Part shown: positions 2,523 through 45,374 of the stretch, piece by piece
Layout of the letters: each line of letters starts with the position of its first letter
Numbering within the stretch: the stretch's first letter is position 1
Assembly (NCBI GenBank): GCA_963575645.1
Contig: OY754467.1
Coordinates: forward strand, 496,001-560,000
Reading direction: 5' to 3'
DNA length: 64,000 bases
Origin: Xanthostigma xanthostigma
Taxonomy: Eukaryota > Arthropoda > Insecta > Raphidioptera > Raphidiidae
Notes under the pieces: model-generated
Database searches by the model: none
What the model was told of the DNA's origin: nothing
The model's input: only the letters and a program-made list of their open reading frames with translations
Program-made: the position numbers and the translations under genes

Positions 2523-2856
2523 TGCCGCCCAGTGTCACCCGGGTGCAAAAGAACGAATGGGGGGAGTACATGAGTACGCACGTTCTTCTTAGTTTAAGTT
2601 TACCGAGATGAATGTTGTGTGCAAATTTCATGATGATCGGAGTTACCGTTCAAAAGTTTTTGTCGGACAAATGTTAAGATACATTTTGCAACATTTTTCA
2701 TTGATGCTCCGCTCCTATTGGTCGTAGCGTGATAATGTCTATAGCCTTCCTCGATAAATGGGCTATCCAACAAAAACAAATGTTCAATTCGAACCAGTAT
2801 AGTTTCTGGGATTAGCGCGTTCAACCAAACAAACAAACTCTTCAGCTTTATCTTTA
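2523..2856 (-). mobile_element. Helitron-like element A, copy 2, abutting another element
   Basis: Same family as 804-1138 in the same orientation, but its 3' CTAGT end has decayed. Its 5' end runs directly into the next element at ~2857. Confidence 0.55.
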
Positions 2857-3401
2857 TATATAAAAATTACGTGTCACGTTGTTTGTCCGATGTTTGTCCG
2901 CGATGAAAACTCCTAAACTACTGAACCGATTTTTAATTTGATTTGCACGCCGTGTGCAATTCGACCCAACTTGAAAGATAGGATAGCTTACATTTCAATT
3001 TATAGTCGCAATATTATTTTATTGCAAATTATTTGTCTATTCCTTGACAGTCATAATTATCTGTTGACTGGATTGAGTGAATATTCAATAGATGGCGCAA
3101 CGAACTTAACAACCATATAAGATAGCGATACCTGTTGACTGGATTGAGTGAATATTCAATAGATGGCGCAACGAACTTAACAACCATATATCTAGATCGA
3201 GGATGTAAAAAAACTGAATATCGTTTAAAACTGCTCGGCACGACGGCGCAGCCGGAGTGCTCGACATACACACATATACGCCCATGTATATTTTAAAATA
3301 GCTAGCAATTAATAAAATAGATAGATAGATAGATGTTCCAATTAAATTGTTTTATTATTTCACTTTATACGTAGCGAAGCACGTACAGGGCCGCTAGTAT
3401 A
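2857..3401 (+). mobile_element. Helentron/Helitron-like element with ...GGGCCGCTAGTA 3' end
   Basis: Begins ATATATAAAAATTACGTGTC, contains the widespread ...CTACTGAACCGATTTT... segment, and ends AGCGAAGCACGTACAGGGCC followed by GCTAGTA. It holds a 71-bp direct duplication (3061-3190) and a short GATA tract (~3318-3335). Non-coding. Confidence 0.5.
3061..3190. repeat. 71-bp tandem duplication
   Basis: The ~59-bp sequence starting CTGTTGACTGGATTGAGTGA occurs at 3061 and again at 3132, nearly identical, separated by a 12-bp linker. Confidence 0.85.
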
Positions 3402-5414: not shown

Positions 5415-5425
5415 ATAGGTATATA

Positions 5426-6000
5426 CAGTATGTAAACACGTAAGGTGCACATAGGGAAATTAACATTGGGAAAAATGACTGGATCAGAGTGAACCTTAAA
5501 ATCTTGTTTTTCAATTTGACAGATAATATTCTTTTGCAAAATGAATGTGTATACTACCGAAGAAAATATTCAAATGATTACTACAACATAATCGGACTTT
5601 TTTTATTAATGGGACATTAAATTCCCAAAAATACTTAAATATGGTGCGAGATCAAATATCTCCGCCTATTCGAGTTGAACCTAAAGACATTGGGTCACTG
5701 TTTTACCAACGCGCATACGTCATAGCAGTCAGACAATTTTTGAATGAAATGTTTCCAAACAGATGGAGTTGTTTTTTTGTTTTATTTTTGTACAAAAAAA
5801 TTAAAATAATGATTTATAAGAGCTTTTTATTATTAAAAAAGCCAAGTAAAATAAAAATAAATCAAAATAAAATAGAAATCCTCAAGATTACCACGATAAT
5901 TCAATAGAAACAACAATTAATGCAGTCATGGCTAACTCTGATCCAAGTATTTTTTCCCAATGCTAATTTCCCTATGTGCACCTTACGCGTTTACATTCTG
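5426..6000 (+). mobile_element. MITE J, copy 1 (~575 bp, TA target)
   Basis: Left end CAGTATGTAAACACGTAAGG and right end are ~50-bp inverted copies of each other, and TA flanks both ends (5424-5425, 6001-6002), as for Tc1/mariner-superfamily MITEs. Interior is AT-rich and non-coding. Near-identical copy at 39127-39699. Confidence 0.85.
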
Positions 6001-6768
6001 TATTTGTTTATTAATCGATCTTTGCCGCTCTCAAAATATGTGGCTGGTACAGAAAAACATTTTAGAAACACGCTCGGCTTGAAGAAAAGATTCCGTTCAG
6101 GAACTCGGATTAGTAATACCTAAATTAAAAATTGAATTTATATTTTCCCCAGTTCTCAGAATTGAAAACTGTAGCCTTGACTTTGTAAACAACAAGAATT
6201 TGACTGTCTCGGCGATAAAGGTGTCTAAACGCATAAAAAAACAAGTTCATTTCAAGATTTTTCTCAAAATAAGTATCGAAGATTGTTTCGGGAATGGGCC
6301 AATGAAACGGCTTATAAATGACATCAATGTAACAATAATGCCAAGCTATTGGTCAATTTTTCATCTCTCTTGACAGTTGACAGTCCTAGGACAAAAACAT
6401 CTATTGACTAGTGGCCTTTTAAAAACGGTTATGTCATAATTTACCGTTTACAATTTGAATACTAAAAATAAAAATAAAAATCGATTATTCTTTGTTGTTT
6501 TCAATGATTACTTTAAGGTCAAAAAATATGTAAATATTTGCTGCAATACCAAACGTGGAATCTGAAAACTTTTCATTATTTATTGCGTATAGCAAATAAG
6601 GTCACCTCGACCTTGACATTTTTTTGTTTTGTTTTTGTTTTTATTGAGTAATGACAGATGAACACAATATTTTGAAAAAAACATCAGTTCGCTTTTAATG
6701 TGGGCGATGCAATATTTAAAACGAATGTTTCATTTTGTTCAGTACTATAGCTGCTCGCGGGTACATAA
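6001..6768. other. Unassigned AT-rich stretch
   Basis: No gene, tRNA or clear transposon end was recognised. Confidence 0.3.
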
Positions 6769-7338
6769 TCATATATTTTAATACGCTAAGGTTAAAGATG
6801 TTTGCCTCCCTCTTTATAAAAAACCTCACAATTTCTCCACATAAATTATACATAATTTTACAGATAATTGCTTGCTCTACTGACATGACAACTAAAAAAT
6901 TTATTATTGCTTTTGTTTTTGTAAATTAATTAAACTACAGCAACGCTGAACAACGTCTGCCATCTAACGGCTTTAATTTTGAAACGTCAACACTTCGATC
7001 TGTCATCTGACCTTCATATTGTAAATACTGCATACTGCCATCTGACGGTTTTAATTTTTAAACAGCGAGCAACGCTGAACAGCATCACAGCAATGCTGCA
7101 TGATGCCATCTGGCTTAGCTCAACGCTTTTGCTACTTGCGCCTCTATATGACAATTTTAGTAAAATATTTCTTCGATCTGTCATCTGAGCTTCATATTGT
7201 AATACAACAAAAAGAAGAACGTTATAAGCAGTGTGCAAAATTAGAAACGAATTGAATACCTGCAAGAATATTTAAAAAATAATTTTGTAAAGTGATATAT
7301 ACTTATTTAGTGCGAATAATTTGCACAGGTCACACTAG
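6769..7338 (+). mobile_element. Helitron-like element B, copy 2 (long form)
   Basis: TC...CTAG ends with the GTGCGAATAATT(t)GCAC hairpin. About 100 bp longer than the short form because of partial internal duplication of a CATCTGACGG...AACGCTGAACAACG block. Confidence 0.75.
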
Positions 7339-18256: not shown

Positions 18257-18852
18257 TCACATATATTAATACGCTAAGGTTAAAGATATTTGCCTCCCTT
18301 TTTAGAAAAAACCACACAATTTCTCCACATAAATTATAGTATATCATTTTACAGATAATTGCTTGCTCTACTGACATCGACAACTAAAAAAATTATTATT
18401 GCTTTTGTTTTTGTATATTAATTAAAATACAGCAACGCTGAACAACGTCTGCCATTAAACGGCTTTAATTTTGAAACAACGTCAACACTTCGATCTGTCA
18501 TTTGACCTTCATATTGTAATACAACAGACACAATACTGCATACTGCCATCTGACGGTTTTAATTTTGGAACAGCGAGCAACGCTGAACAACGTCACAGCA
18601 ATGCTGCATGATGCCATTTGGATTAGCTCAACGCTTTTGCTACTTGCGCCTCTATATGACAATTTTAGTAAAATATTTCTTCGATCTGTCATCTGAGCTT
18701 CATATTGTAATACAACAAAAAGAAGAACGTTATAAGCAGTGTGCAAAATTAGAAACGAATTGAATACCTGCAAACATATTTAAAAAATAATTTTTGTAAA
18801 GTGATAATTATTATGCTTATTTAGTGCGAATAATTCGCACAGGTCACACTAG
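18257..18852 (+). mobile_element. Helitron-like element B, copy 5 (long form)
   Basis: TC start, GTGCGAATAATTCGCAC hairpin, CTAG end at 18852. Same internal duplication as copies at 6769 and 16060. Confidence 0.75.
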
Positions 18853-23960: not shown

Positions 23961-24661
23961 TCTATACTAATATATAAAGCTGAAGAGTTTGTTTGTTTGG
24001 TTGAACGCACTAATCTCAGAAACTATTGGTTCGAATAGATTTTTTTTGTTGGATAGCCTATTTATCATAGGCTATATAATATCACGCTACGACCAATTGG
24101 AGCGGAACATCAATGAAAAATGTTGCAAGGTGTATCTCAAAATTAGACCGTCCGACAAATATTATCAGGTGGAATGTCTTTACTAAATATTGCAATATTA
24201 GCACGGTACGTTCACAAGCCCGGATAGCTCAGTTGGTAGAACGCAAGACTCTTAATGCCGGGGTCTTGGGTTCAAGCCCCACGTCGGCGAATATATTTTT
24301 ATTTATTTTTTTCTATACATTGTTTTCTTCTAAGGCTTACATTTCAATTTTTTAAAATTTTATTACGACTAATTAAAATTAAATAAATCTAATTAATAGC
24401 TCATTTGAAAACTGTTACAACTATAATAGGTACCTGTATAAAAATAATTTTTCTACAGTGTTTTCGATTAAATATAATATATTATATTAAAAGAAATTTA
24501 TTACTTAAAAAAAGTATAAATACTGCGTTTTAACGACAAAAACTTTTGAACGGTAACTCCGATCATTATGAAGTTTAGACACACCATTAGATAATCTCGG
24601 TAAACTAAGATGAATGTGCGTACTCATGTCCCTTCCTTCCCCATTCGTGGGACCGCTAGTA
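23961..24661 (+). mobile_element. Helitron-like element A, copy 4, with tRNA-Lys cassette
   Basis: 5' TCTATACTAATATATAAAGC and 3' GGGACCGCTAG/T. The interior carries the same tRNA-Lys-like cassette and following T-rich region as the copy at 17083. Confidence 0.7.
24218..24290 (+). pseudogene. tRNA-Lys(CTT)-like pseudogene inside Helitron A
   Basis: 73 nt, full tRNA length. It starts GCCCGGATAGCTCAGTTGGT, has CTCTTAA in the anticodon-loop position (CTT) and GGGTTCAAGCCCC in the T arm. Anticodon-stem pairs are broken and the 3' acceptor strand has lost a base, so it is unlikely to be functional. A and B boxes remain. Confidence 0.7.
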
Positions 24662-29605: not shown

Positions 29606-29778
29606 AGAGCTCGCTTTAGGGGAACGTTGAAAGTCTTTCTCTCTTCAAATAAACTTTTTCAGAACAGCCGAGTTATTGAAGTAAATACAAGAAAAATAAC
29701 TGACTTTCAAATGTTTTTTTAGTCAATATTTCTTGTCGATGTGATCATTAATGGCGCCGTATTGTTTTCTGATTTCAG

Positions 29779-30220
29779 TACTGACAGCGGCTGGGAAAAT
29801 CCTTTCAGACCCGGCGGCGAATTGAGCAGGGAGGCCGACGAACTAATCGAACTGATAAAAGGCGGCAAGCCGATAACGCCGACTCCGGGAAGTACGGCTC
29901 CTCCGCTGCCTTCGGTCGACGAGACAGACGCGGCTAGCGGTGCTTCGTCGCCGGTCGCGACGCCCGCCAGTACGGCCGACGCCGCTTCGCCCCCGACGCA
30001 GTCGCCGAAGAAGGCGACGAATCTGAACTCAGCGGCGCCCGGCGCCGTCACCACGAAAAAGAAAGCCGGCGTCAACGGAAGTGCTCCGGTAAACAATAAA
30101 CCGAGCTCGCCCGGTGCAGTTGATGTCAAAAGAGATAATGTCGCTCCCGGCGACGCTTCGCAAATTGAACACGTTGTTCTTAAAAAGAAACCAAAGTGCA
30201 AGTGCTGTGTCATACAATAG
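29779..30220 (+). CDS. Terminal exon of a CaaX-anchored, paralemmin-like protein
   Basis: The exon follows a good acceptor (TTTTCTGATTTCAG, ending 29778) in phase 2 and runs to TAG at 30218-30220. It starts TDSGWENPFRPGG, continues with LSREADELIELIKGGKPITP, then a long Pro/Ala/Ser/Thr-rich acidic stretch that looks disordered, and ends in KKKPKCKCCVIQ. The last four residues form a CaaX box whose Gln favours farnesylation; two cysteines just upstream in a polybasic context are likely palmitoylation sites. Human paralemmin ends RCKCCSIM and has a related EVDELIHKADE segment, so a paralemmin-like membrane-cytoskeleton protein is plausible, but the paralemmin coiled coil was not found here. GC content is clearly higher than the surroundings, as expected for coding DNA. 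Confidence 0.72.
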
Positions 30221-35815: not shown

Positions 35816-36810
35816 GGTAGTGTTAGCGACTACATAAGACACAACAATTATTAATAAATTATCATTCAATTTGTAATATATTTTATTTAATTCTTTCACA
35901 CTTCTTCACATCTTTTATTACAAGCGTCATCCGCTTTGTCTATTCATCGTCTGATGGCTACTGACAACCGCGTGTGTCCATGTACTTTCCGTGTTGGCTG
36001 GTTCCACGCGTCCCCTCGTGTCATTGGTCAGCTGCCTGTCACGTGGGAAGGCACAGCTACACACACAGAAATACCACAGCTTGTGTACACTGTACAGTAG
36101 GTGCACTACGCCTTTCTTACAGTAGATACAATATTAGCTCGTTTAATAATATAGGGGATAAAAACAAAACGGTGTCAGTTGTTCATATTTATTTATAAAA
36201 ATTTAAACGGCACAAAACGATAAATAATTCTTTTCTTTTTGTAAGTACAAATAAAATTATATTTATACATAGAGTACTTCTTACTGAACAACATATTAAA
36301 TACAACAATTGAGAATTTTGCAATTTTCATAAAATTACAAGTAGATGAAAAAATCAACACGAAAATATTTACTGAATACAAAATACATTTTCAAAATTTT
36401 TTACTACATATTTCACACTATTTTTTAGCCTTGAACATGGCACGCGGGACAGCAGTCTTATTTACATCTTTGCGATACACGATCGTCGCGAATGACTCGT
36501 CGATCGAATTTCAGACATCGCCGTAGTTAAATCTTATCACATTAAAAAAAAAAACGGTTTATTTAAATTTTTAATATGCGTCGTTGAATGAATTTCGCCG
36601 GATTCGTCATTTGGGCGGCAAGACTCGAGTCAGACCGCAACTTAAAAAATAGACTACTGGATCGGCCACGTGCCCACTGAAGATGATCTTATTGGCAAAA
36701 TTATAAAACAAAATCTGAACTATTTACATTAAAATTACAACGGATGTATCTCCTAAACTATAGAACGTGTTGTAGGTACGAATTTTATAAATCCTTTAAA
36801 TTATTACATA
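35816..36810. other. Unassigned AT-rich stretch
   Basis: 35930-36120 is somewhat GC-rich; 36440-36520 has CpGs. No coding exon or repeat end recognised. Confidence 0.25.
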
Positions 36811-37683
36811 GTACAGTCAATCTGGCAAAAACCTCAACAAAACCACCCAAAAAGGTGAAACTTGGTGAGTCGTTAGAGAATGATGAAAAAAAGGTTACCT
36901 GGCAATGGCCACCTGGTACCTGTTCAAATAGTCAAAAAAAAACTCAAAAATATTTTGAAATGCATTTTTATCGAAAACTATCCATTTTACAGAAAAATTT
37001 ATTGAACAAAAAATGTAGAGGGCATCGTTATCTACAATTAATGTCATTGGTGCTATGTTGTACAACAAAAAATGTGCGCAGTAGGTGGCGCTAAAGTGCC
37101 AAAAAAAAGTGTTTTTCCACTTTTTTGCCCTGAAATTTTCATTTTTCAGTTACGATTCAAATGGAAAAATTGTTCCATTTTATTTTATAAACAACTTTTA
37201 TTTCAACATTTTTTTCATACAACTTACCGTTTCAGAGCTGCAGCTTGTTGAAGTGAAAATAAGTTGTATGAAAAAAATGTTGAAATAAAAGTTGTTTATA
37301 AAATAAAAAGGAACAATTTTTCCATTTGATTCGTAACTGAAAAATGAAAATTTCAGGGCAAAAAAGTGGAAAAACACTTTTTTTGGCACTTTAGCGCCAC
37401 CTACTGCGCACATTTTTTGTTGTACAACATAGCACCAATGACATTAATTGTAGATAACGATGCCCTCTACATTTTTTGTTCAATAAATTTTTCTGTAAAA
37501 TGCATAGTTTTCGAGAAAAATGCATTTCAAAATATTTTTGAGTTTTTTTTGACTATTTGAACAGGTACCAGGTGGCCATTGCCAGGTAACCTTTTTTTCA
37601 TCATTCTCTAACGACTCACCAAGTTTCACCTTTTTGTGTGGTTTTGATACGAAATGATTTTTTTTTCACCAGATTGATTGTAC
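36811..37683. mobile_element. Giant palindrome, ~415-bp arms, 33-nt spacer
   Basis: Left arm 36811-37226, right arm 37260-37683, nearly identical inverted copies. Outer ends CAGTCAATCTGG / CCAGATTGATTG sit next to TA on each side, suggesting a Tc1/mariner-type target. The spacer contains GAGCTGCAGCTTG. Open frames within the arms are mirror products of repeat DNA, not genes. Confidence 0.9.
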
Positions 37684-38168
37684 TATACAGTAGAGAAACA
37701 AAATAACGGCTTTCATATAATTACTAACGTTTCTGAAATAATTGTAAACAAAACACTACACTCACAGAAAAATACAATTGAAATTATCGACAATAAACAA
37801 AAGCATATCGAGATATTTGCTACTAAATACTGTCAGATCTGCAAACACTTTTTACAGATTAAAAATAAAACACAGTAATAATTATTATTATACAACTAGT
37901 GTCCGACAATACTAACGATTCGAAAGAAGGAAAAAACTAATCCGATTTCAATTTTTTTTTCGTTTTTACGGTTATAAAATCGAACATCAAACGTAATGTA
38001 ACTCCGACAATTTCATAAACACTAATCGCAAGAAGGCGATTAAAAAATAAAACTAGAAAACAATTCGATTTCCGTTTGTTTCGACTCGAAGTCGGTAATT
38101 TAATTAGGGGTGTGAAAACAATAAACGACAGCGTAATATAAAACAGTTAAATGCCCGCGCTTTTAGAA
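37684..38168. other. Downstream flank of the PALB2-like gene
   Basis: AT-rich; includes the candidate minus-strand poly(A) signal ATTAAA at ~38097-38102. Nothing else recognised. Confidence 0.3.
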
Positions 38169-38379
38169 TTAATCTTCGAGTAGGTAAGCCGTGATGTGCT
38201 TCAAAGAAATGTTGTAGTTCTGATCGGCGCTCGCAACGTGCGTCCTCGAATGAAACAGCGACACGTAAGGTCCCGACGGACACTGCAATAACAGCGCCCC
38301 CGATTGCAGCGCCCAGCACAACACTCCGTTCGTGTAGCACGCCGTCAATACGCCTGCTTCGACGCTTACGCCACGCAAC
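38169..38379 (-). CDS. PALB2: PALB2-like exon 5 (last blade, stop)
   Basis: The acceptor is ATTGTTGCAG. The exon encodes SVEAGVLTACYTNGVLCWAL followed by QSGALLLQCPSG and ends LLED-TAA. The human counterpart is [20 protein letters not shown]. A candidate minus-strand poly(A) signal, ATTAAA, lies about 70 nt past the stop (near 38102-38097). Confidence 0.72.
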
Positions 38380-41300
38380 CTGCAACAATAAAGCGTTGAA
38401 AGAAGTCGTTTCCGACAATAAGAGAAAAATATGTTCATTCAACTCATGCGCGTTATTCATGTTTTATCATGCCTAAAAACCGAACCCTAAATAGCCATTT
38501 ACCGACTGGTGACAATTACTTGTCATAACTCAATGAAGATTCCTACTAGCTCGGCCATTGTGGAGTAATGAAAATAAACGTAACTATTTTCTGAGTCGTA
38601 ACGAAATAGTAGGTAACAACAACTCCCTGTTGTTACCCATTGAGGCTAAAATTGAGAGGCCGAATGTTTTCGACATGGAGTTTATTCATAACCGGCTAAC
38701 CTCAAACCAAAACATTGAATCGTGCTGTTTGGTGCTGTTAGTATTGACAGTTTTTTTTATAAAGAAATAAATAGATATTTACAACATCTCATTATAATTA
38801 AAACATGAATAACGCGCAATTGTTGAATAAAATTATGGGCGCAACTTGTAGGCTAAGTCATGACCTGTCAGCGCGATGAATGACTTAGACTACTAGTTAC
38901 GCCAATAACTAATATATTATATACATACTCGTTAAATTCTTCGGGAACTTTGTAGGTTTGTAAAGGTTTACACGCATTGTATAAACCGTTGATGGCAATC
39001 AGTCTAAGCGAACCATTCTCGGTCAACTGCAGGATGAATAAAAACCCCTGGAAAAAGACACGTCAAAATCACCGGTAAAATCTACAGCTTTCTGTTATCT
39101 AGATTTTAGACAACACAAAATTGACACAGTATGTAAACACGTAAGATGCACATAGGGAAATTAACACTGGGAAAAAATGACTGGATCAGAGTGAGCCTTG
39201 AAATCTTGTTTTTCAATCTGACAGATAATATTCTTTTGCAAAATGAATGTGTATACTACCGAAGAAAATATTCAAATGATTACAACATAATCGGACTTTT
39301 TTTATTAATGGGACATTAAATTCCCAAAAATACTTAAATATGGTGCAACATCAAATATCTCCACCTATTCGTGTTGAACCTAAAGACATTGGGTCACTGA
39401 TTTACCAACGCGCATACGTCATACCAGTCAGACAATTTTTGAATGAAATGTTTCCAAACAGATGGAGTTGTTTTTTTGTTTTATTTTTGTACAAAAAAAT
39501 TAAAATAATGATTTATAAGAACTTTTTATTATTAAAAAAGCCAAGTAAAATAAAAATAAATCAAAATAAAATAGAAATCCTCAAGATTACCACGATAAAT
39601 CAATAGAAATAACAATTAATGCAGTCATGGCTAACTCTGATCCAAGTATTTTTTCCCAATGCTAATTTCCCTATGTGCACCTTACGCGTTTACATACTGT
39701 ATACTTACTCTATCGCAAAGAGCCCAAACGCAGTTCATTTCTAAAGAGCCGGCAAGCGACATCTGCGGCGCATTTGGATTCCCGATGTCGACAGTGGTCA
39801 CGAGTCGTCCGTACGACAAATTCCACACCGATACGTGTTGATCTCCCAGACCGATGATCATTTCCGTACACTCTGTCGAACAAAAGAGAATCGCGCAATT
39901 AAAAGACGGGTTGCACTCCGGGAGTGCCGGCAAAAGTGAAAACTTGAATATTAACGTCTTACGAATTTTCGATCAAAATGGTTTGTATCATAGATTGCAT
40001 TTTTATTGTACGATATTTCAACGCTAGATGTCTAACGTTGTGTAAATAAAAGTTTTCGTCTTACGCATATCTGACGATCTGACGCGAGTTTAACATTTTT
40101 TAAAAAGTGTACAACGCCGCTAAAGAAGTTTTCACTTCAAAAGTCATCTATTCATTGTTCTGTGCAATCGTGACACGACCTCGGTGTTTTTGTTTATTTT
40201 ACCTGAAACATTTCTCAAAGACGTAACGTAATGCGTGACAGACTCGATTTCCGATACGGACGATACGGTTTGGAAATCCGTAGCCAAAGTGTATTTACGG
40301 AGCAACGTACAAGGCGGCGTTGAAAACTGGTTTCGCCAACTGATCAGAACCGACCGAGAGTTTTGCAACACCATATACTGAACGTCGTGTTCAGATCTGC
40401 AAAAAAATTGGTTATCTGTAAAGTCGGTTTACGGACGATAGTTTTACGTGATAACGTATTCCGCTCGAATATCATATTTATTAACAATACATTACTGCGC
40501 TCTCGCTTGCACGCACAGGGTCAGGCGGAACGTTACACTTTTTCGTGCATGCAGCCGGTGTTTCATCTTTTTATATTGACGTGATTCATCAATTTATAAG
40601 ACGTTATCATGTCAAAAATTAACCGTAATTTGCGAGCGCAACAATAAAATACGTTCTGAATTGTATTTTATAAATTGAAGGAAACTCACCCTTTGATATT
40701 TTCCAGCTGGATAACTTTTTTATTGAGTCCGCTTTTACTGCAGAAAAAATAGACGGTCGCAAACACGTCCGAAATGGGGCATTCCCTTTTTTCAGACTTG
40801 TGTTCCTTGGTCCAGAGTTCAACGTACGCGGTGGCGTTGTCCAAGTTCATGACCATTTGCGATTTGGCCTTTTTGTTCATGCAGCCCTTTTCCAACTTCA
40901 ATCGCTGTATATTGCCCAGTCCTATCCACATGTTCTGCGCGCCTAGCATCGTGCCCAACGGCGACTGCTTCCAGAAACTTATCAAATACTCCTGTACTAC
41001 GACTAAAATATTGTCGACGAAATGAATATCGAGAACTGGACCGTCACTTTCCGATATATCGATTTCGTGCTCTCCGGATTTTTTTTGTGTCGGCGCGACG
41101 TTCTTCTGCCGTCTCAGCTGTAACCGTTCGAGAATCGGTTGCCGCACGATCGGCATCGAATTCTTTTCGCTGAACAGCATCGACTCGGATTCTAAACATT
41201 TCCATTCGGAAAAATCGGTCCGAGATCCGAATAGACACGGCGAACTCACTTTCGGTTTAGAACACGACTTCTTCAAAAGAACTTTCTGAAACGTTTTTTT

Positions 41301-44300
41301 AGTGCCGTTATTAGTCACCAGAGGTATAAATGGTGGCGGAGAAGCTTCCGGTACTATCGTGTCCGTATTAAACAGCGACGAGGACGGGGCGGCGTTCGCG
41401 TCCGATATTACAATCAGCTGCGAATCGTCGTCGGTCTTTTCTAAAAAAGCGCTGTTTGTCTTTATGACGACCGTATCGGCAGAATATTCGCAAGGCTGGT
41501 TCAAATAATCAGAACACTTTGGCTCTAAATAACAAGGCAAAGACAGTCTTCTTTTTAAAATGCGCTTGCAATTCGACTCGATCACGCTTGAATACGATCC
41601 GCAATCGCTACTCGACGAGTAAGAACTGCACTCGCTATGACAATCGGTAGTTTTAAAATCGGGCGTTTTATCTGCACGCTCTTTGGAACTCGCAACGGCA
41701 TCGATAATAATCTGTGACTTGTCGGGATCTTCTTTTACAAAATCGCTTTTCGGCGCGGTACTCGTAACTCGACTGTTCTTTTTTGATTTTACTTCTTTGC
41801 CGTCCCATTCGATATCTCGATCGTTCACGGAAGCAGACCGTGTCCGATTGGATTTAGTCGCGTTCGGTTTCGAATCCCCTTTCCTTTTGACGCGTTGCAA
41901 AAGGGCTTCTAAATTAAGTTTCGGCAGTTTGATGCGGCTGCTACGGGTCAGCGTTTTATCTATAGCGACGATGTGTCTGGTGGTCGGCCCCAAAAACCGT
42001 TTTTCTGGAAACTTGTTTCGCGTTTCTTTCGTTTTTAATTTTCGAGGTGGTTTAAATTTATCCGTATCCATTTTTTCGATTTCGCTCGACGCTTTACTTT
42101 CCGATAATTTGTTTTCCGAACCATTCAATTTCGCAATCGCGTGTTGCGGTTCGTCTTCCGAACCGCCGTTTGTTGTTTGCGAAACGTTATTTCGACTATC
42201 TTTTATGTTTAATTTAACCGGAATTTTTAAAAAACTACGATTGCTTTTATAGATTTCGGATTTCCCGGTACTAGTTGACGCTTGCGGTTCATCCAAACCT
42301 AGCGTACACAATTCGGGTAATTTATTTATCGTTTCGGAAGACTCCCGAGTCGAAGTGACTGTTTCTGTTCCGTTATCCATAAAATCTTCATTAATTTCCA
42401 TTTCAGGCAAATTTGCATTTTCATTTTTTTTCGATTCAAAAACGACGCCGTTTTTGTTTTTTGCCGTTTCCGACTCGCGTTTTGTAGAATCGATGTCTTT
42501 ATACAACGCGATAAGATACTCTTCGGAAATCATTACTCTTTCGGCTAAATATACGGACAATTTTTGATCATATTGCGAAAATCCTCTGAAATCTCCCGGC
42601 ATCTGTACGAAGTCGTCTAAGTTAACTCGCGACTTCCGTAATGACGGCCAATTTACTGCATTTGCCGGTATAGAAATTTCTAGCTCGTCCAAAACTTCAT
42701 CTAAGATTTTCTTTCTGATCAAGGCGAAAAAAATATCGGTAAATTGAAATCCTTTACACTCCACTTTCAGAACACTGTCTCTATCAAATTCTTTTAGACT
42801 CGACCTCTGCTGAAGAGCCGTTTTTTCCTTATTAAATAAGTTTATTTTCTCAGCTATGTCCGTGTTTCTCGTTTGCACGATATACGACGAACTCGCAGCC
42901 GCACAGTTATTGTCCGAAGAACTGTTTCTTTTTTCGGTTTTGTTTAACGGTTGACTTATTTTTAGTTTATCTTTCGTTTTACTGTTACGTTTGACATTAC
43001 TATTCGTAAATCCTTTCGTTCTTAAACCGGGGCGATTTGTCACGCAGCTTTTTCTCGTTTTCAAACCGGAGTAGTGACTCATGAGCGTTTCGCTATTTAA
43101 AAAAGTATCGTTGCAAATCAAATTCTTCGGAACCATCAGATCTAGTCTCAAGTTCCTATTTCTTAGAAATTTTTTTCTTATCGTGTTTGCTTTCTTCTGT
43201 CGCAAAACCTTTAACTTATTTAATATATTCGACTGTACTTGAACTTTTTTATTATGATTTTTATCTTGATTTTTGTAAAGAAATTTTCTTTTCCTTTCGG
43301 ATTTTGAAGTTTTATTATCTTCTATTAAAACGTTAGTTTTTTGCGTTTCGTTGCAAACTTCGGATTTTGCATCAGAGCCGTTTTTCTTAACGGGCTTACC
43401 TTTATTCAAATACGACTTTTTTTCGACCGACGTCGATCTAGCCTTTTGTGAATCGATAGAATCGTTTCTTTGTTTCAATAGTTCAATATAACGAACGCGA
43501 GCCGACCTTCGATTCTGAATTACTTGCGCAGAATCTTTTTGCGACAAAGGTTTCGTATTTATTTTTAAATACGAATAGAACTCATTTTTTCTGGACGTCT
43601 CGGGGCTGGACGGTATGGCAATACGGTCCGGACTTCTCTTTTCCGCCGCTTTCGCTTCACTGCTTGCCATTGTTCCGTTGGTGAATTCAATTATTTTGTT
43701 TATCTCAAACTTCTCAGTGTTTTCTCCGTTTTTCAACTGTTCTAATAAATTAACCTCGTTACATTTCGCACTTATTTTTGACGAAACAGAAGAATTACTA
43801 TCTATAAATTCCACTATCTCGCAAGTGTACGGCTTATCGGGTTTATTCTGATCACAATTATATTCGTTTGTTTCTTTTGCAATCGGTGACTCACGTTTTG
43901 TACTTAGTTTATCCCTTAAGTGTTTATTTTCAAAACTAAAAAAATCAAGAGGCGAATCATCACAGTTAGTGACATTGTTCTCTTGCGTGGCAGTATCAAC
44001 TTCTTTTGTTTCTGAATCATCGCAGTCGATAACACCGTTTACTTTAGCGGAAGTTTCCGTTCCGTTTGTTTTTTGATCGTCGGATTTTTTTGTACTGTGT
44101 GTTTTGCAAGTTTGGTTGTTTTCCACTTCGGCAACTCCGCTCGCATTGTCCGGTTCGAGTTCAACTGCAGCTTCGGTCGGTAAAGTGATTTTTACACCGT
44201 CGAATAATTCGTACACTTGACCGTTCATTTCATCATCGATCGAGTCGCGCAACGGACTGTTATTACAAGCGTTTTCGTTCGCGACAGGCACTTCTTTCCC

Positions 44301-45374
44301 GTCACTTTTATTTATTATTTCCGTAATAAATACACATTCATCGCTATCATCGTTCGACTTATTATTACAATAGACCGAATTTGAAATTGTGGCATTTTGT
44401 ACATTATATGAATTATTTCTAATATTTTTAATCATCGTTTGGAAATTTTCGCAAAGTTTCAACTCGTATTCTCTTTTCCTTTCGTCTATTAAAATCTGTA
44501 GCCTCTCGCAATCATCTTCGTTAAAACTGGTGTAATCATCATTTAACGCGTTCTTGAAATCCACTTTCCACAGTGAAATTTTACTGCGTGGCTCGACGCA
44601 GTCAACTTCCCGTTTCTGACCCGACAGAATCATTCCTTCATCCATGCCGTCGGAAACGGCAATGGACGCCGAGTTGTCGGCCTGTTCGATTTTTTTATGC
44701 GGAATGGCTCCGGTTCTCGATTTCAAATTGACTGCAAACGGATTGATATAAAAAGTTTTCAGACGACCGACGGAACTCGTTTTAGAATTGATCTGTTGCT
44801 GTTTCGAATTGCAAGTGGAGTTCACCGGATCGTAATTATTTTGAAAGTGACTAGAACTAGCGGCGCATTCCAAACTCGAAATACCGGACGTGAATATTTT
44901 AGGTTCGGGTGAAAATTTTTCCCTTAAATTAACTTTCCGTCTGTTGTGTAAATCCGTTGTCGAATCGCAATATTTCGTTTCCACTGTGCCGGCGGCCACG
45001 GTCGCCTTTTTACGCCGCTTTTGTTTTTTATTTCTTAAACTCGAACTTTCTGAATCCGACAAACTCATATCCGATTCCATACGTTTCGCCGTCGAAGGAA
45101 ATATTTTCGACGGATCGGAACAATGCTTTTTGCGTACGTACGAGCTGTGATGGAGTGCCCTTTTTCTCGACGGTAATCTGTCCGAACTTATTTGAAAATT
45201 ACGGCGTGAAAAAATTCTAATTTCTTTATTAACACTAGGAGTACTGTCTTCCAATAAATCATTTTTTTTATACGTTCTTCGTTCGATGATATTTGATGTT
45301 TTTGGTACACAGTAATATTCTCCGCTACTGGTCTCGCATTCTGATATATGTCTCATCTGCCGAGAACTCTGCAT
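38169..45374 (-). CDS. PALB2: PALB2-like protein (partner and localizer of BRCA2), 5 exons, ~1790 aa
   Basis: In vertebrates PALB2 bridges BRCA1 and BRCA2 in the nucleus and supports RAD51-mediated homologous recombination. Here five exons (45374-40690, 40396-40203, 39872-39709, 39047-38929, 38379-38169) join with consistent phases (2,1,0,2) into 1790 residues. Residues ~1435-1790 match the human PALB2 propeller as I recall it: a VVVQ..L..FW start, then FCS.....VI.L.NIKG, IIGL....VSVWNLSYGRLV, GFLFILQ....LRLIAIN, and a last blade reading TNGVLCWALQSGALLL. A charged helix at ~285-310 (CERLQILIDERKREYELKL) resembles PALB2's N-terminal coiled coil. The long middle is Ser/Lys/Asn-rich and looks disordered. 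The ATG follows an in-frame TAA three codons upstream, and ACC precedes it. The protein is longer than human PALB2 (1186 aa). Orthology is inferred from remembered alignment, not a search; another propeller protein is the main alternative. Confidence 0.68.
38438..38910 (+). mobile_element. Element D, copy 2, in PALB2-like intron 4
   Basis: Runs from CAACTCATGCGCGTTATTCA to GTTACGCCAATAACT. It lies within the 549-nt intron 38928-38380, beginning 18 nt inside the donor; without it the intron is about 76 nt. Confidence 0.8.
38929..39047 (-). CDS. PALB2: PALB2-like exon 4 (propeller)
   Basis: A 119-nt exon, acceptor CTTTTTCCAG, donor GTATGT (38928-38923). It encodes GFLFILQLTENGSLRLIAIN, which lines up with human GLLFIVL.. 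and ..FQLIVINPKT, then a Leu/Lys stretch ending PEEFN. Phase 0 in, phase 2 out. Confidence 0.72.
39127..39699 (+). mobile_element. MITE J, copy 2, in PALB2-like intron 3
   Basis: CAGTATGTAAACACGTAAGA...CGTTTACATACTG with ~50-bp TIRs, ~97% like 5426-6000 by eye. The right end sits 9 nt from the exon 3 boundary (donor GTAAGT at 39708-39703). Right flank TA; left flank has CA instead. Confidence 0.85.
39709..39872 (-). CDS. PALB2: PALB2-like exon 3 (propeller blade with VSVWNL)
   Basis: A 164-nt exon, acceptor TTGTTCGACAG, donor GTAAGT (39708-39703). It encodes ECTEMIIGLGDQHVSVWNL, then SYGRLVTTVDI, matching the human GTTIMNNIVIWNLKTGQLL blade by position and pattern. The exon ends in phase 0. 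Confidence 0.72.
39905..40140 (-). mobile_element. Element C, copy 3, in PALB2-like intron 2
   Basis: GGTTGCACTCCGGGAGTGCC at the left and GAAGTTTTCACTTC at the right. Intron 2 (40202-39873) would be ~95 nt without it. Confidence 0.8.
40203..40396 (-). CDS. PALB2: PALB2-like exon 2 (propeller)
   Basis: A 194-nt exon preceded by TTTTTTTGCAG and followed by GTAAAA. Joined to exon 1 it completes a Gly codon and continues SEHDVQYMVLQ; the next in-frame portion ends VTSLRNVS before the split codon. It corresponds to the linker and strand region after the NIK(A/G) block of PALB2. Confidence 0.7.
40402..40619 (+). mobile_element. Element E, copy in PALB2-like intron 1
   Basis: AAAAAATTGGTTATCTGTAA through GACGTTATCATGTCAAAAATT. 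The intron (40689-40397) would be ~75 nt without it. Its A-run end, read on the minus strand, is the T-tract directly before the exon 2 GCAG. Confidence 0.75.
40690..45374 (-). CDS. PALB2: PALB2-like exon 1: long disordered region, coiled coil and start of propeller
   Basis: One 4685-nt coding exon gives residues 1-1561 plus two nucleotides of the next codon. The donor is GTGAGT (40689-40684), and the reading frame would stop immediately after it (TGA), so splicing is required. Basic clusters such as KKQKRRKK near residues 115-125 could serve as nuclear localisation signals. The propeller begins after about residue 1435. Just upstream of the ATG lies TTTTACGCTTTACAG (ending at about 45390), which reads as a good 3' splice site, so a 5'-UTR intron is likely and the promoter probably lies further right. 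Confidence 0.8.

Follow-up and report, generated by a model that had tools for sequence, protein, structure and literature searches.

A candidate highly divergent PALB2 (FANCN) orthologue in Xanthostigma xanthostigma (Raphidioptera)

In human cells, the PALB2 propeller binds residues 21-39 of BRCA2 and the PALB2 coiled coil binds BRCA1, according to the available portions of PMC6210650 and PMC7059202. The available text of PMC7059202 places the coiled coil at residues 9-42, and describes a long charged region followed by a C-terminal domain, a layout that is also seen in the protein described here. The origin of PALB2 was dated to just before the vertebrates in the accessible part of PMC3969565. 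The initial annotation of the present locus held that Drosophila lacks a clear counterpart, and this agrees with the accessible part of PMC6849265, in which PALB2 was found in neither Drosophila nor Aedes. In the available part of the tardigrade paper PMC6797769, PALB2 appears as a name only, in a table of gene names. We found no report of an arthropod PALB2 in the literature, judged by titles and the openings of abstracts. Because surveys put PALB2 at the base of the vertebrates or miss it in dipterans, a gene of this type in an insect is of interest. The window analyzed here is a stretch of 64,000 nucleotides from X. xanthostigma. Judged from its sequence, one gene in the window probably encodes a highly divergent PALB2 (FANCN) orthologue with a propeller of the BRCA2-binding type.

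The gene model and its surroundings

The gene consists of five exons (Table 1), and its translation yielded a protein of 1790 aa with one terminal stop and all junctions in phase. The initial annotation had proposed a phase-consistent five-exon gene, and this was borne out on the minus strand with GT-AG junctions and the same protein length. Exon 1 encodes a long charged region (residues 1 to about 1434) and then the beginning of the C-terminal domain. It is open for 1561 codons, the log10 chance of which is about -49 at the local composition. The combined share of KENSTDRQ was 61% in residues 1-1434 versus 43% in residues 1435-1790. Among the 15 AGs listed for the acceptor of exon 3, two were in frame; position 39872 is one of them and, by eye, has the better pyrimidine tract of the two. 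No second copy of the exons was found within the 64-kb window.

Table 1. Positions of the gene, its exons and related features in the 64,000-nt window
Feature	Position	Strand	Description
Gene model	45374-40690, 40396-40203, 39872-39709, 39047-38929, 38379-38169	minus	five exons, GT-AG
Exon 1	40690..45374	minus	residues 1-1561 and two bases of codon 1562; open frame, donor GTGAG
Exon 2	40203..40396	minus	194 nt, phase 2 start; acceptor TTTTTTTGCAG, donor CAG/GTAAAA
Exon 3	39709..39872	minus	164 nt, phase 1 start; acceptor TTCTCTTTTGTTCGACAG
Exon 4	38929..39047	minus	119 nt, phase 0 start, begins GFLFILQL
Exon 5	38169..38379	minus	211 nt with stop, phase 2 start
C-terminal PALB2_WD40-like domain, residues 1435-1790	38169..41072, introns included	minus	PF16756 best family, below gathering score
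KREY, residues 300-303	44466..44477	minus	earlier coiled-coil candidate; coiled coil not supported
ATTAAA, possible polyadenylation signal just past the stop	38099..38104	minus	consensus match only

Intron 3 is mostly filled by a 575-bp transposon-like element (39126-39700), with 76-nt terminal inverted repeats that are 88% complementary. A 96.7% copy of this element is located at 5425-6003, and a transposase-like frame was recognized by eye in both, with no Pfam match. Downstream of the gene, at 36808-37686, lies a foldback element roughly 880 bp long, whose nested inverted arms are 88-99% complementary. Elsewhere in the window, a 165-aa open frame on the plus strand (29723-30217) has a CCVIQ end that is CaaX-like by eye, and matched no Pfam family at E 0.1. 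Two pairs of frames are probably repeat copies, as judged by eye: those at 2603-2866 (minus) and 24080-24352 (plus) have YHATTNxSGxSMKNVA in common, and those at 7017-7271 and 18501-18779 (both minus) are near-identical (VFNSFLILHTAYNVLLFVVLQYEAQMTDRRNILLKLSYRG...). Another 27 ORFs, one of them in intron 3 and the remaining 26 taken from a list of 56, had no Pfam match at E 0.1 or 0.01, and neither tRNA genes (bacterial code) nor Rfam families at the gathering score were found in the neighbourhood.

Sequence comparison of the C-terminal domain

The C-terminal domain was compared, as seven fragments, with the 24,736 families of Pfam, in which PALB2_WD40 (PF16756) has a profile length of 347 and a gathering score of 27 bits. 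PALB2_WD40 was the top family for five of the seven fragments, with E values of 0.046 (422 aa), 0.032 (356 aa), 0.0072 (exons 3-5), 0.012 (exons 2-5), and 0.033 (exons 3-4); the other two had no match of any kind. The scores, 13.1-15.7 bits, were all under the curated cut-off. The match spanned about 110 residues, from about 1638 to 1748 of the model, corresponding to positions 196-308 of the 347 in the profile and to about 1033-1145 of human PALB2. Pfam gave no match for the exon-1 tail (residues 1370-1561) or for exons 4-5 alone, no family for exon 1 alone at E 1, and none for residues 1-420 at E 10; the NCBIfam search gave no match. Of the seven reversed or shuffled Pfam controls, six had no match and one had an unrelated match at E 0.13.

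The runners-up were close behind, with E values of 0.054-0.091 for WDR3, 0.045-0.14 for SCAP, and 0.12 for CDC20. The low Pfam scores and the closeness of the other propeller families speak for a rival reading, in which the gene encodes a WD40 protein that evolves fast and comes from another, or an undescribed, family and its resemblance to PALB2 is the general WD40 pattern, whereas the first rank of PALB2 for every fragment with a match speaks against it. A better-scoring propeller family other than PALB2, named beforehand as grounds for giving up the identification, was not seen in Pfam, where all scores lay below the curated cut-off.

The typed human PALB2 domain 1-316 maps onto positions 32-347 of the profile, and profile position 197 is therefore human N1034. 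H1639 of the insect protein was placed on this position, with HVSVWNL over NIVIWNL, and the profile match keeps the register of human PALB2. This match starts in exon 3, which contains HVSVWNLSYGRL, matched to human PALB2 NIVIWNLKTGQL. The initial annotation had described a match to human PALB2 block by block; this held in the profile for residues 1638-1748 or so, but not for the exon-1 part or for exons 4-5, which had no Pfam match.

Pairwise comparisons gave a mixed picture. With hhalign on single sequences, the score against human PALB2 was 23.07 and none of 200 shuffles scored as high (shuffle maximum 23.0), the program's own probability being 2.3% and its E value 0.02; its global mode misplaced the sequences. 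The three generic WD40 controls scored lower (GNB1 18.7, RACK1 17.2, and WDR5 16.9), which argues against a WD40 protein of another family. With Smith-Waterman, GNB1 had Z values above those of PALB2 in two of three settings (4.9 and 4.5 versus 2.9 and 3.0), which argues for one. Shuffles as good as the alignment with human PALB2 numbered 2 (global) and 10 (local) in 1000 with BLOSUM45, and 10 (local) and 20 (global) in 1000 with BLOSUM62. In a phmmer search against the PDB, human PALB2 was not among the matches at E<=10, and the best match was a nitric-oxide synthase at E 0.057. Together, the sequence comparisons weakly suggest that the C-terminal domain is PALB2-like, and by themselves are not decisive.

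Intron positions and accessory motifs

Gene structure is the strongest evidence for the PALB2 relationship. The introns within the human PALB2 domain lie after c.2748, 2834, 2996, 3113, 3201, and 3350. The available parts of PMC12805630 and PMC13187058 support the human exon limits. The two domains were aligned, blind to introns, in 27 settings (20 pairwise, 4 MAFFT, and 3 hhalign) that are not mutually independent. Window intron 3 (phase 0, before G1682) coincided with human intron 11 (phase 0, before G1068) in 23 of the 27 settings, the four misses being stiff-gap settings. The start of exon 4, GFLFILQL, thereby corresponds in position and phase to that of human exon 12, GLLFIVLS. Window intron 4 (phase 2, codon 1721) coincided with human intron 12 (phase 2, codon 1117) in 14 of the 27; its 13 misses comprised the whole BLOSUM62 set of five (one codon off in three cases), four PAM250 and three BLOSUM50 settings out of five each, and a single short alignment by hhalign. 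The two coincidences occurred together in 13 settings. With four introns placed uniformly at random, the probability of at least two coincidences was 7.5e-5 and that of at least one 0.015, both values applying to the hhalign mact 0.2 mapping alone. Window introns 1 and 2 coincided with no human PALB2 intron, and four of the six human domain introns had no counterpart in the window gene. The last exon is 211 nt long in both genes. Exon 4 has 30 nt fewer than human exon 12, and hhalign placed gaps of nine residues there. For exons 3-4, the Pfam match pairs two stretches of equal length (78 and 78), so that it is possibly ungapped, in which case window intron 3 would not coincide with human intron 11.

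The initial annotation had also proposed a coiled coil around KREY. Ungapped scoring against two PALB2 coiled coils, with shuffle controls, ranked this segment tied second in the 38-residue scan, in which the best score was reached by 38% of shuffles, outside the top five for the 26-residue core (P 0.19), and second for the 15-residue core (P 0.52). The proposal was not upheld: the segment does not rise above shuffles and lies 300 residues into the protein, versus residues 9-42 in human PALB2. No BRCA1-binding coiled coil scored above shuffles (P 0.38, 0.19, and 0.52), in scans that could miss a short motif that has diverged or an exon lying further upstream. Upstream, the minus-strand frames to 52 kb gave a best score of 21.0, a value with no shuffle control, and scanning for motifs as far as 55 kb turned up none.

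Other PALB2 motifs were taken from the available portions of PMC7059202, PMC8701324, and PMC9671498. The longer forms of ChAM gave P values of 0.21 and 0.68; the 17-residue form did reach P 0.026, yet its position, residue 1615, falls within the propeller region and is implausible. Neither MBD-II nor ETGE was above chance in the 1790-aa model. The MRG15-binding motif FxLP is an accessory motif of human PALB2 that does not define the Pfam family; no F.LP occurs in the 1790 aa, where the motif is approached by looser forms alone, for example ISIP (residue 900) and ITLP (residue 396). A candidate MRG15 site at residues 886-915 or so was dropped, as it was not among the top-ranked segments. At 17 human PALB2 variant positions, two MAFFT alignments gave four or five identical residues and five unaligned. 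Among the five human positions at which a variant disrupts the binding of BRCA2, one at most was identical and two were unaligned, in MAFFT alignments that are doubtful. Since these alignments look wrong by eye around human 1025, the comparison of BRCA2 contacts is not decisive. AlphaFold2, run on the contiguous 132-aa piece of residues 1430-1561 alone, returned an unusable, helical model with a pLDDT of 43.8.

The missing PALB2 motifs beyond the propeller fit a WD40 protein of another family, but two intron positions and phases in common with human PALB2 and a last exon of equal length do not, and we consider that reading unlikely. Very improbable is a wrong joining of exons, in which the PALB2-like exons 2-5 and exon 1 would be parts of two genes or of a different splice form: the model was built from genomic sequence and the exon-1 part of the domain fits no Pfam family, but every junction has GT-AG borders and keeps the phase, and the domain obtained by joining, 356 aa long, is close to the profile length. 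The PALB2-type C-terminal domain of the initial annotation is thus supported by the top Pfam family in five of seven fragments, the register, and the two shared introns, with scores that stay below the cut-off.

Proposed function and comparison with known systems

As a divergent PALB2, the protein would end in a predicted seven-bladed propeller, formed by the last 355 or so residues, which by analogy with human PALB2 would hold an N-terminal segment of BRCA2. By homology, the protein would most likely tether BRCA2, and this tethering would help to load RAD51 at DNA breaks. The N-terminal region of about 1430 residues, charged and probably unstructured, would anchor the complex on chromatin or DNA through sequences that would have diverged past recognition. 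A BRCA1-PALB2-BRCA2 bridge in this lineage, as put forward in the initial annotation, was not supported, since no BRCA1-binding coiled coil exceeded shuffles. We put forward only tentatively, as a rather doubtful extension, that arthropods may have a PALB2 that kept a BRCA2-binding propeller and lost the BRCA1 coiled coil, ChAM, and the MRG15 motifs, and that would localise BRCA2 without BRCA1; PALB2 would in that case be much older than the vertebrates, and lost in Diptera. If true, an arthropod PALB2 would make this an older animal gene with a dipteran loss, and would offer a natural test of the functions that PALB2 retains once the majority of its motifs have diverged.

Among known systems, generic WD40 proteins (GNB1, WDR5, RACK1, and the WDR3, SCAP, and CDC20 propellers of Pfam) have the WD40 blade pattern in common with the window protein by eye, and GNB1 has Smith-Waterman scores against the window domain comparable to those of PALB2. 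Their Pfam and hhalign scores, however, are below those of PALB2, in a comparison made by sequence. From human PALB2, the window protein differs in length (1790 versus 1186 aa), in a Pfam match under the cut-off, in a coiled coil, MBD-II, and ETGE that are not above chance, in an unconvincing ChAM, in the lack of FxLP, and in the four of six domain introns without a counterpart. Like human PALB2/FANCN (WD40 structures 2W18 and 3EU7; PF16756), it is a long protein that ends in a WD40-type domain, and the two genes agree in two intron positions with their phases and in a last exon of 211 nt.
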